Made by a program: the position numbers and the translations under genes | Source of the DNA: Deltaproteobacteria bacterium | GTDB taxonomy: Bacteria > Desulfobacterota > DSM-4660 > Desulfatiglandales > Desulfatiglandaceae | Direction: 5' to 3' | Length of the DNA stretch: 41,840 nucleotides | Assembly (NCBI GenBank): GCA_021163815.1 | Contig: JAGGTJ010000021.1 | Location: 1 to 41,840 of the forward strand | In this document: positions 35,599-38,500 of the stretch, piece by piece | Layout of the letters: the number at the start of each line of letters is the position of its first letter | Position numbering within the stretch: position 1 is the first letter of the stretch | Notes under the pieces: generated by a model | The model's database searches: none | What the model saw: only the letters and a program-made list of their open reading frames with translations | What the model was told of the DNA's origin: nothing

Positions 35599-35606
35599 AT
35601 ATTACT

Positions 35607-35661
35607 ATAGTGATGAAGTCCACTATCAAATTGCCTCTTTATATGGGCTGATGACTTCTAC
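35607..35661 (+). promoter_or_regulatory. Fluoride riboswitch aptamer (crcB motif)
   Basis: The aptamer fits the fluoride (crcB, RF01734) class. P1 is ATAGTG (35607-35612) with CACTAT (35621-35626), enclosing the loop ATGAAGTC. The loop bases GAAGTC (35615-35620) are exactly complementary to GACTTC (35653-35658), forming the pseudoknot. P3 is GCCT (35633-35636) with GGGC (35645-35648). The conserved strand GGGCTGATG leads into the pseudoknot and CTAC. Compared with the well-known Thermotoga aptamer, the loop/3' pairing is GAAGTC/GACTTC instead of GAGGCC/GGCCTC, a set of compensating changes. It would sense Mg-bound fluoride and turn on the gene downstream, which is a dynamin-like GTPase. Confidence 0.88.
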
Positions 35662-35729
35662 TTCACGGGAGTGGGATTATGTGCATCCCTGCCCCATTTG
35701 AGCTGTCTTGTGGGGTCGTTACATTAATA

Positions 35730-35762
35730 CCCTGCAGGTATTACACCTGACAGGGCTTTTTT
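35730..35762 (+). terminator. Terminator-like hairpin in the riboswitch expression platform
   Basis: CCCTG+CAGGT (35730-35739) pairs with ACCTG+CAGGG (35745-35755) with one bulged A, followed by C and six T (35757-35762). It ends only one base before the ribosome binding site TAGGAGG. A competing perfect hairpin, TAATACC (35725-35731) with GGTATTA (35737-35743), uses the same bases and would prevent it, so this looks like a terminator/antiterminator pair. Confidence 0.72.
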
Positions 35763-35775
35763 GTAGGAGGAAGTT

Positions 35776-37554
35776 ATGCTTAATCATTATAAAGAGATCA
35801 GGGCAAAACTCATCGAGGGAATAGAAAGGTTGTCAGAGCTGTCTTCCCGGAGAGGCAATGAGAAAATTACAGAAAATCTCAAAGAGATTCGAGAAAAACT
35901 TGTTGAGAACAAATTTCACCTTGTAGTTCTCGGTCAGTTTAAAAGAGGGAAATCAACATTTATCAACAGTATTATTGGAGACAAGATCCTTCCTGTTTCT
36001 GTTGTGCCTCTTACCTCTATTGTAACTCTTATCAGGTATGGGCAAGAGGAAGAAATCAGAGTCCTTTTTGAGGATGTGGGCAAAAAGATAATATCACGGG
36101 ATGAACTCCCCGGGTATGTCACAGAGGCCGGAAATCCTAAAAATGTCAAGGATGTGAAGCAGGTGGAAATTTCTTTTCCTTCTCCCTTCTTGAAGGATGG
36201 TGTCTCTATCATAGATACTCCAGGTGTGGGTTCCACCTTTGAAAATAACACCGAGATGACCTATAATTACCTGCCCAAGGTAGATGCCGCCCTTTTTCTG
36301 CTCGCTGTTGATCCTCCCATCAGTCAGTCAGAGATAGATTTTCTCAAGGATGTTCAGGAGTACGTGGAGAAGATCTTTTTCATCCAGAACAAGATTGACT
36401 ATCTTAGTAAGGAGGAGCGTGAAGAGTCTATGATGTTTTCGAAGAGGGCAATTGAAGATGCTCTTGGCAGGAACGACATAGAGATTCATCCCCTGTCTGC
36501 AAAGCTTGCATTAGAGGCCAAGCAAACAAACGATAAGAGTATGCTCGATCAGAGCAGGCTACCGGAATTTGAGGCCGTGTTGAGTCAGTTTTTGCTCAAT
36601 GCCAAGGGCAGGATTGTGTTACGTTCGGCCCTCAACGGTACCAGGAAGCTCCTTTCGGATGAGGAGATGACCCTTAAACTGGAAAAACAGGCCATCGAGA
36701 CACCTCTTAAACAGCTTGAAGAAAAGCTTCGCCTGTTTCAGGAAAAGATGCACGTTATAAAGCAGGATCGTGATGACATAAAATATTATTTTGACGGGGA
36801 GATACAGCGTGTTATTGACGTGCTGGACAGGGATATTGAAAGACTCAAGGAGCGAGCAATACCTGAATTATTGGTTGATCTTGAAGAGGAGGGCAAGGCA
36901 AACAGGGATAAAAGTATTTCAGAATATATTAAGCTGATGGAGTCAAAACTGCACGATGGGGTTGTCTCCATTTTTGATTCCTGGGTAGCGAGGGAAGAAG
37001 AGCGATTAAATGAACATTATGCACAGGTATCAAAGCGGTTTTCGGATAGTACCAATGATATAATTGAGGCGATTTTGAAGGCATCTGAAGAATTGTTTGA
37101 CCTTGAAATTGAACGGGTAAAGACAGATGAGAGCATAGTGAGTGATAGCAGTCTGTATTATATGCTGGGAGATCCGCCCAAATTTTTTGATCTTGAAGGT
37201 GCCTTTGATTTTTTTTCAAAGCGTATTGTTCCCCGCGTATTTTCCCACAACATGGTCATGAAGGATATCAAAAAAAAGCTTCCCGAGATGATCGACAAGA
37301 ATTGCGGCAGGGTACGGTGGGATTTTATGGACCGTATAAAGCGTAGTTTCATGAATTTTCGCTGGGACCTTAATCTGAAAATTGATGCCACGGAACAGGG
37401 CATAAGGCAGGCCATAGATAAGGCTGTTTCCCTTAAAAAGCAGAGTGTTAATGATGTGGACAAGGCCAGGGAAGCTATCGAGACCGAACTTAACAATATC
37501 CATGCCCTTAAAAGAGAGCTCAGTGAAATTGAATCTGATCTTCAATCTGTTTAG
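35776..37554 (+). CDS. Bacterial dynamin-like GTPase under riboswitch control
   Basis: A 592-residue dynamin-family GTPase. The P-loop GQFKRGKS is at 53-60, the switch threonine T80 in VVPLTSIV, G3 is DTPG at 147-150 and G4 is NKID at 205-208. After the GTPase domain (about 45-280) come long charged helices and coiled coil to the C-terminus, as expected for the stalk of bacterial dynamins, which bind and remodel membranes. No transmembrane helix stands out. TAGGAGG precedes the ATG at good spacing. The leader carries a fluoride aptamer and a terminator hairpin, so expression is probably induced by fluoride. It is followed by a perfect 17-bp hairpin with a T run. It is a single dynamin gene; the usual second dynamin partner is absent. 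Confidence 0.9.
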   Translation: MLNHYKEIRAKLIEGIERLSELSSRRGNEKITENLKEIREKLVENKFHLVVLGQFKRGKSTFINSIIGDKILPVSVVPLTSIVTLIRYGQEEEIRVLFEDVGKKIISRDELPGYVTEAGNPKNVKDVKQVEISFPSPFLKDGVSIIDTPGVGSTFENNTEMTYNYLPKVDAALFLLAVDPPISQSEIDFLKDVQEYVEKIFFIQNKIDYLSKEEREESMMFSKRAIEDALGRNDIEIHPLSAKLALEAKQTNDKSMLDQSRLPEFEAVLSQFLLNAKGRIVLRSALNGTRKLLSDEEMTLKLEKQAIETPLKQLEEKLRLFQEKMHVIKQDRDDIKYYFDGEIQRVIDVLDRDIERLKERAIPELLVDLEEEGKANRDKSISEYIKLMESKLHDGVVSIFDSWVAREEERLNEHYAQVSKRFSDSTNDIIEAILKASEELFDLEIERVKTDESIVSDSSLYYMLGDPPKFFDLEGAFDFFSKRIVPRVFSHNMVMKDIKKKLPEMIDKNCGRVRWDFMDRIKRSFMNFRWDLNLKIDATEQGIRQAIDKAVSLKKQSVNDVDKAREAIETELNNIHALKRELSEIESDLQSV

Positions 37555-37605: not shown

Positions 37606-37646
37606 TGCCTAAATCCTGCAAACTTGACGTTTGCAGGATTTAGGCA
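37606..37646. terminator. Perfect 17-bp palindrome, likely terminator of the dynamin gene
   Basis: TGCCTAAATCCTGCAAA (37606-37622) and TTTGCAGGATTTAGGCA (37630-37646) are exact inverted copies around the loop CTTGACG; ACATTTTTTG follows. The arms match the family C core, so a repeat-derived palindrome probably serves as terminator between the two genes. Confidence 0.7.
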
Positions 37647-37678
37647 ACATTTTTTGATTAGGGGAAAGGGTGTTTGTT

Positions 37679-38500
37679 ATGGCTTTTTCTGTTATAGATC
37701 TTTATGCAAAGGTATTGCCCAAAACCAACTGTAAGGAATGTGGATTTTCTACCTGTTTTGCTTTTGCAAGTATGGTGGTTTCTGAAAGGTATCCTTTAAA
37801 AAATTGTCCGTACATTGCCCCTGATATCCTGAGAGATGTTGAAAGGGAGCTTGAATCTCAGTACAGGGAAGGCAAGTGGCTGAAAAAGGATATGGCGGCA
37901 GAAGCTCTTGTATTGGCAAAACAGAGGGTCACCTCTATGAAACTGGATGATATTGCTGAACGAACAGGAGGTGAATTTACAGTATGCAATGGTACAGAGC
38001 AGATAATCCTTCCTTACTTTAATACGACCCTTATAATCACAAGAGATGGAATACAGGAGCGTTCAGGAAGAAAACTCACCAAAAATGAGAATACCTTTAT
38101 ATATATTTATATGGCCCATGGCGGAACAGCTTATCCCTCTGGGCGGATGCAGAGTTTTAAAGAATTTCCCAATACCGTATCCAAAACGGTATCCATGAAA
38201 AGGCATGTAGAGATCCCGCTGGCAAAGGCGTTTTCTTCAAGGCTGGATGAGCTGGAAAAGGCATGTAAAAAGGTTGGTGGAAAAGATGTAAAAGCTCAAT
38301 ATGATTCACCTGACCTTGCTTTTCAGTTTATGGTTTTTCCTAAGATACCGGTTGTCCTTTTGTTCTGGGATGAAAATGATGAATTTGAGGCCGAAGTGAA
38401 ACTGTTATTTGATGAAACAATTATCCAGCATCTTGATATTGAATCGATAATGTTTTTAAGCGAGCATATTTGTGAAATGCTCATCAGAGACATCGAGTAG
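37679..38500 (+). CDS. DUF3786 protein with N-terminal Fe-S domain
   Basis: A 273-residue protein. The N-terminal 40 residues form a cluster-binding module: KTNCKECGFSTCFAFA followed by a fourth Cys in KNCPYI, the C-x2-C-x4-C-x(n)-C pattern found in corrinoid Fe-S proteins and redox proteins. The remainder (about 75-273) is the DUF3786 domain, with IYMAHGG, SFKEFP and FPKIPVVLLFWDENDEF as recognisable segments. Its function is unknown; the fusion suggests a redox or corrinoid-linked role. GGGGAAAGGG lies 9 bases before ATG 37679, which I prefer over a GTG at 37670. A terminator-like palindrome lies between it and the dynamin gene, so it may be independent of the riboswitch. Confidence 0.82.
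   Translation: MAFSVIDLYAKVLPKTNCKECGFSTCFAFASMVVSERYPLKNCPYIAPDILRDVERELESQYREGKWLKKDMAAEALVLAKQRVTSMKLDDIAERTGGEFTVCNGTEQIILPYFNTTLIITRDGIQERSGRKLTKNENTFIYIYMAHGGTAYPSGRMQSFKEFPNTVSKTVSMKRHVEIPLAKAFSSRLDELEKACKKVGGKDVKAQYDSPDLAFQFMVFPKIPVVLLFWDENDEFEAEVKLLFDETIIQHLDIESIMFLSEHICEMLIRDIE

Follow-up and report, generated by a model that had tools for sequence, protein, structure and literature searches.

A fluoride riboswitch precedes a dynamin-like GTPase gene in two bacterial phyla and very probably places it under fluoride control

Why should a fluoride riboswitch stand directly in front of a gene for a dynamin-like GTPase? In the literature consulted, the genes named for this riboswitch class are those for exporters, Na+/H+ antiporters, pyrophosphatase, K+ or Cl- transport, mutS and formate hydrogen lyase (PMC11139923, PMC2864571). 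The usual description of fluoride resistance comprises export, pH control and the protection of sensitive enzymes. The locus that raises the question lies in a stretch of DNA of 41,840 nucleotides, which is called the window below. Our best reading, with a probability of roughly 0.8 and without any experiment, is that the riboswitch raises production of the dynamin when fluoride enters the cell, and that the protein, by inference, is a fluoride-induced membrane-remodelling GTPase.

A search of the whole window with the Rfam model RF01734 gave a single match of 40.2 bits (E 7.6e-8), covering all 64 model positions, while the curated gathering score of the model is 34 bits. It is also the only match in the draft genome (1.6 Mb, 71% complete). 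The match and its helices are as follows, in window positions.

35600-35667, plus strand: fluoride riboswitch aptamer (RF01734), full length by covariance model
35609-35624, plus strand: P1 helix, AGUG 35609-35612 with CACU 35621-35624, from the Rfam alignment
35615-35620, plus strand: 5' pseudoknot strand GAAGUC, partner of 35653-35658
35633-35648, plus strand: P3 helix, GCCU 35633-35636 with GGGC 35645-35648, from the Rfam alignment
35653-35658, plus strand: 3' pseudoknot strand GACUUC, from the Rfam alignment

P1, P3 and the pseudoknot are all intact in the window, and this aptamer has the lowest score among the Rfam-detected aptamers preceding its nearest-relative dynamins. In an alignment of 59 aptamers, 97.4% of the cells of the three helices are paired, compared with 88.3% in shuffles, and changes on both sides occur in 11 of the 14 helix pairs. 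Four of these two-sided pairs are in P1. Pairing reaches 100% of the cells in the pseudoknot, where 4 of the 6 pairs have two-sided changes, and at one pseudoknot position that is changed in the window, A-U and G-C occur 29 times each. When the partners were slid by 1-3 columns, the pairing signal was lost. A genuine fluoride riboswitch of class RF01734 in the window, and its conservation, are shown by computation; fluoride binding and a change in expression are inferred.

The next gene on the strand begins with the ATG at 35776, and 108 nt separate it from the aptamer. Its product matches the Dynamin_N domain (PF00350) with 101.6 bits at a cut-off of 27. The relevant features of the gene and its 3' side are listed below.

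35776-37554, plus strand: dynamin-like GTPase (PF00350), 592 aa (P0001)
35932-35955, plus strand: G1/P-loop GQFKRGKS, residues 53-60, conserved in two protein alignments
36214-36225, plus strand: G3 motif DTPG, residues 147-150, invariant in 39 aligned proteins
36388-36399, plus strand: G4 motif NKID, residues 205-208, with N205, K206 and D208 invariant in the 39 aligned proteins
37111-37230, plus strand: hydrophobic stretch including YYMLGDPPKFFDLEGAFDFFSKRIVP, residues 446-485, of low confidence in the AlphaFold2 model
37606-37646, plus strand: intrinsic-terminator-like hairpin of 18 pairs with a T-run, 3' of the dynamin gene

The AlphaFold2 model (mean pLDDT 78.5, pTM 0.60) consists of a G domain with a long helical neck and trunk. 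The closest solved relatives in sequence are BDLP (2j68, E 4.8e-49 with a profile) and IniA, and the best fold matches are IniA (6j72) and BDLP (2j69) with TM-scores of about 0.5. Such a value suits flexible multi-domain dynamins, yet it is not a close match. The fold family is established by computation, and from the resemblance to the IniA and BDLP membrane dynamins we infer membrane binding and GTP-dependent remodelling. Residues 446-485, which lie between the trunk helices 381-441 and 487-554, have a pLDDT below 50, and the stretch is conserved and aromatic-rich in close relatives. It may be a membrane-contacting tip; this candidate rests on a low-confidence part of a predicted model, and no membrane-binding data exist. 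Because the strong hairpin at 37606-37646 follows the gene, the dynamin probably forms a transcription unit by itself. The gene behind it (37670-38500), beyond that terminator-like hairpin, carries an Fe-S domain and DUF3786.

The initial annotation, made from sequence alone, had claimed a fluoride aptamer with P1, pseudoknot and P3, compensating changes in the pseudoknot, a bacterial dynamin as the next gene and no exporter in the window. The first three claims held, and so did the fourth, in that the window genes that were scanned yielded no fluoride exporter. Its gap of 115 bases is corrected to the 108 nt given above. It had also named a sub-threshold score in an Rfam covariance search as grounds for refutation, and this refutation failed since the score is above the cut-off.

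The same annotation proposed a survey of genomes for crcB motifs upstream of dynamin genes, and it is this survey that carries the argument. An initial protein search of GTDB genomes gave 17 loci with relatives, and at every one of them whose 5' end is inside the contig, an aptamer was found just upstream on the same strand. Fifteen of these aptamers are above the Rfam cut-off, while the one at locus L046, from Actinomycetota, fell slightly short of it with 32.9 bits (E 3.4e-7) in a targeted search. A profile of the family then matched in 79 of the 395 sampled genomes of the window's phylum. At least 50 of 85 profile matches have an aptamer upstream on the same strand, and scanning the remaining loci added more. 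Desulfoferrobacter suflitae DRH4 (locus L038) is one of the species with the pair. After merging and de-duplication, the tree contained 110 proteins, 94 of them of this dynamin family. Among the 94, all from the phylum, 73 have an aptamer directly upstream and 7 are further behind one on the same strand, while one is encoded at a contig edge and the other 13 lack an aptamer (L025 was scored positive from an aptamer detected in a separate scan). Two large branches of the family carry the aptamer: proteins of the window type have about 590-640 aa, those of the second type about 555 aa. The window's own clade is positive in all of its 22 members, and in each of them no other gene stands between aptamer and dynamin.

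This linkage, which is established by computation, is not a property of dynamins as such. When the other PF00350 dynamins of the phylum were scanned as a control, none of the 19 loci had an aptamer, whereas the aptamer of a positive locus added to the scan (L156) was detected. The notion that all dynamins carry the aptamer was rejected on this result. Chance co-location was rejected as well: where a genome of 2-5 Mb contains about one aptamer, and only 400 nt upstream on the gene's strand are counted, it is expected about once in ten thousand genes, and it is seen in most of the family. No close plasmid copy was found when plasmid carriage was considered.

Intact aptamers were also observed before broken or shortened dynamin genes (L044/L053, L047/L008, L004 and L156). 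These may reflect decay of the gene in some lineages, or assembly errors.

The pairing recurs in a second phylum. In a search started from the genome of L046, the family was matched in 31 of 247 Actinomycetota genomes. Each of the 15 matches that exceed 500 bits is closely preceded, on its own strand, by an aptamer. Eight of these aptamers are above the Rfam cut-off and seven were detected by a covariance model built in this study; L160 is the same locus as L046, whose aptamer helped to build that model. The Actinomycetota pseudoknot is mostly of another sequence type, GGAGCU or GAAGCU with AGCUCC or AGCUUC, which is again a compensated change.

A first alternative is that the riboswitch is a relic of a lost exporter operon and that the dynamin is unregulated. 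In its favour, no CrcB/FluC (PF02537) match exists in the genome of the window, which says little at 71% completeness, and the leader in the window is degenerate. Against it stand the adjacency of aptamer and dynamin in 22/22 clade members and in another phylum, on which it was rejected, and the expression-platform helices that sit between aptamer and dynamin. We consider it all but excluded. The more specific possibility raised in the initial annotation, that an exporter gene between aptamer and dynamin was lost only here, is excluded by the position of the dynamin as first gene throughout the clade.

How the aptamer would act on the gene must be read from the leader. Fluoride has been proposed to raise expression in this riboswitch class (PMC2864571, PMC11139923). 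In the mechanism that we propose, fluoride together with Mg2+ would stabilise the pseudoknotted aptamer, and the stabilised aptamer would withhold the 3' pseudoknot strand from a competing helix, so that the dynamin is made. The competing helix would differ between species, being either a terminator, an anti-pseudoknot stem or a helix that blocks the Shine-Dalgarno sequence. The candidate elements in the window are the following.

35656-35676, plus strand: possible anti-pseudoknot stem, UUCUACUUC 35656-35664 with GGAGUGGGA 35668-35676, from sequence
35730-35762, plus strand: terminator-like hairpin CCCUGCAGGU..ACCUGACAGGG, followed by C and U6, from sequence
35763-35770, plus strand: Shine-Dalgarno region GUAGGAGG, complementary to CUUCUAC 35655-35661, from duplex prediction

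In 73 leaders, the first ten nucleotides of the 3' pseudoknot strand were paired against the rest of the leader and compared with 200 dinucleotide shuffles each. It was found that 50 of the 73 leaders have a competing partner significant at 5% or less by shuffling, where about 4 are expected; for the relatives, such competing helices are established by computation. Many of the partners run directly into a U-run, for example in L063-L075, and these are predicted to be terminators whose formation excludes the pseudoknot. Among the leaders of the second subfamily, overlap of the partner with the Shine-Dalgarno region is frequent (L112, L114, L115 and L128). A competing partner in 50 of 73 leaders, often a terminator, fits a switch by which fluoride turns the gene on. 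All versions of the leader predict more dynamin expression with fluoride, a prediction without experimental support. Leaders of the window's clade contain further hairpins after the stem, and from inspection we infer that in several members a second pair could form an antiterminator.

The picture is least clear for the leader in the window itself, which has a weak expression platform and whose competing partner was not significant in the same shuffle test. The best-pairing partner in the ten-nucleotide test is the Shine-Dalgarno region of this leader at -9.2 kcal/mol, and 10.5% of the shuffles are as low, so that Shine-Dalgarno sequestration was rejected as the mechanism in the window. The anti-pseudoknot stem is weak, with 4 of its 9 pairs being G-U, while a strong stem lies at the same place in relatives. 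The hairpin at 35730-35762 is predicted to form both with and without the pseudoknot, and a similar second hairpin is found in several relatives. One may therefore suppose that the linkage in the relatives is real while the copy in the window has lost switching, the dynamin here being constitutive or weakly expressed. The low-scoring aptamer, the weak competing helix and a terminator predicted in both states speak for this. On the other hand, all three helices are intact, the score is above the cut-off and the leaders of near relatives share the same layout, and we consider lost switching unlikely.

Under the preferred reading of a fluoride-regulated dynamin, the neighbouring genes are informative. 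They were identified by Pfam on one representative per cluster, and the remainder by BLAST clustering. At L065, L069, L073 and L085, CrcB/FluC is divergently transcribed with its own back-to-back aptamer. Riboswitch-dynamins also adjoin genes for CBS-DUF190 proteins, for Na+/H+ exchangers, for enolase and for a universal stress protein. Fluoride has already been linked to certain kinds of gene, namely those for exporters, Na+/H+ antiporters and fluoride-sensitive enzymes (PMC11139923). The window's genome has one CLC transporter, far from the dynamin.

Several further arrangements were noted. Back-to-back aptamers that share one intergenic region, one of them facing the dynamin, occur at the four FluC loci, where the oppositely directed aptamer faces FluC, and also at L084 and L062 and at L161, L163 and L173. 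Locus L105 (G258:C1 1000-14000) is a fluoride island with four aptamers in 10 kb, two dynamins of different subfamilies, a DUF190 protein and others. Single genomes can have unusually many fluoride aptamers, such as G352 (11 matches) and G407 (7 matches). A 392-aa protein without a Pfam match lies between aptamer and dynamin at L123 (4556-5731), and a relative of it is behind an aptamer in L135. The aptamer at L003 (1675-2013) is followed by a frame that leaves the contig and looks transposase- or RNase-H-like by eye. A small protein of the prenyltransferase-type alpha-alpha toroid kind (PF00432, checked on L110) also recurs beside riboswitch-dynamins, at these positions of the respective loci.

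L110 1915-2715, L120 1212-2096 and L122 3125-4003: small PF00432-type protein
L045 6853-7644, L041 1622-2410 and L074 708-1514: small PF00432-type protein

In L110 it lies between aptamer and dynamin, and in L019 the ORF behind another fluoride aptamer resembles it by eye. It is possible that the toroid protein is a further member of the fluoride regulon.

The neighbours bear on another alternative, namely that the dynamin acts on some other target, such as phage defence or cell division, with fluoride as a mere cue. The bacterial dynamin DynA can act against phage (PMC8844932), and PADLOC gave matches to its LeoA/LeoBC models. These matches are only distant and a defence-system reading was rejected for this reason; moreover, fluoride would be an odd cue for phage, and the neighbours are fluoride-stress genes. 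This alternative appears very unlikely to us.

Because the pairing is conserved in two phyla, is absent from other dynamins and adjoins FluC, Na+/H+ exchangers and enolase, we place the dynamin in the fluoride response. Fluoride regulation of the gene, which the initial annotation had inferred, is strongly supported and very likely on this comparative evidence, without an experiment. In our proposal, the dynamin would be a member of a conserved fluoride regulon with FluC, Na+/H+ exchangers and enolase, and the GTPase would assemble on the cytoplasmic membrane and remodel, tether or patch it during fluoride stress. As regards the cellular job, the initial annotation had offered two guesses, membrane protection and compensation for an inhibited GTPase. 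Compensation would mean that AlFx, BeFx and MgFx trap the GTPase in a transition-state-like form and that the cell makes more of it. The same argument is made for enolase and pyrophosphatase, of which the latter is a known riboswitch-linked gene (PMC11139923) and the former adjoins several riboswitch-dynamins; trapping is chemically plausible, as the GTPase motifs of the dynamin are complete. Nevertheless, the dynamin gene is present in only 5 of the 85 genomes of the window's class and is thus an accessory gene, the inhibition of which hardly needs offsetting, and the other dynamins of the phylum lack the riboswitch. For these two reasons membrane remodelling is favoured and compensation is judged unlikely, though both remain inferences.

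Membrane protection or remodelling as the dynamin's job is inferred by analogy with DynA, and we would neither press it nor dismiss it. Altered membrane structure and integrity are among the effects of fluoride given in a 2024 review (PMC11139923). The route from fluoride to membrane damage that requires a dynamin is not established. This and the 13 of 94 family members without a detectable aptamer are the weak points of our account; a contribution of the dynamin to fluoride tolerance is likewise inferred, as there are no deletion data. A bolder reading, on which we would not bet in either direction, is that many bacteria from at least two phyla meet fluoride with a dedicated, riboswitch-controlled dynamin that seals or remodels the membrane. 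If this is true, fluoride resistance has a membrane arm besides ion export and metabolic compensation, and there is a dynamin with a defined inorganic inducer. The riboswitch-dynamin of two phyla points to membrane remodelling as such a third arm. As the natural cues of bacterial dynamins are mostly unclear, fluoride would offer a precise and titratable inducer with which the cellular role becomes directly testable.

When compared with known systems, the RNA is the same as the RF01734 class in its aptamer, pseudoknot and P3, and as in the class, terminators overlap the 3' part of the motif in related leaders (PMC2864571, PMC13273304). The target gene is what differs. No dynamin is mentioned in the main text of the 2010 motif paper, where mutS, K+ or Cl- transport and formate hydrogen lyase are named (PMC2864571). 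No paper with fluoride, riboswitch and dynamin together was found in the open-access full text searched, which did not include the 2012 founding paper (PMC4140402), whose supplement could list dynamins; of the papers pairing a fluoride riboswitch with a GTPase, none appears on-topic by title and abstract. The dynamin as a fluoride-riboswitch target is apparently undescribed in the searchable literature, and priority is not certain. On the protein side, IniA of Mycobacterium and BDLP of Nostoc share the G domain with the long helical neck and trunk that are predicted for the window protein, but the identity is only about 17% over the fold alignment, and to our knowledge the genes for IniA or BDLP have not been reported behind a fluoride riboswitch. 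DLP1/DLP2 of C. jejuni are related GTPases (5owv) that form a heterotypic pair, whereas the riboswitch-dynamin mostly has no second dynamin beside it. DynA of B. subtilis has two GTPase domains in a two-headed fusion, in contrast to the single one in the window protein. It is nevertheless the model for the proposed role, being a stress-linked dynamin, thought to act under pore-forming stress, that forms clusters where membranes are damaged and has a protective role in the cell (PMC8844932).
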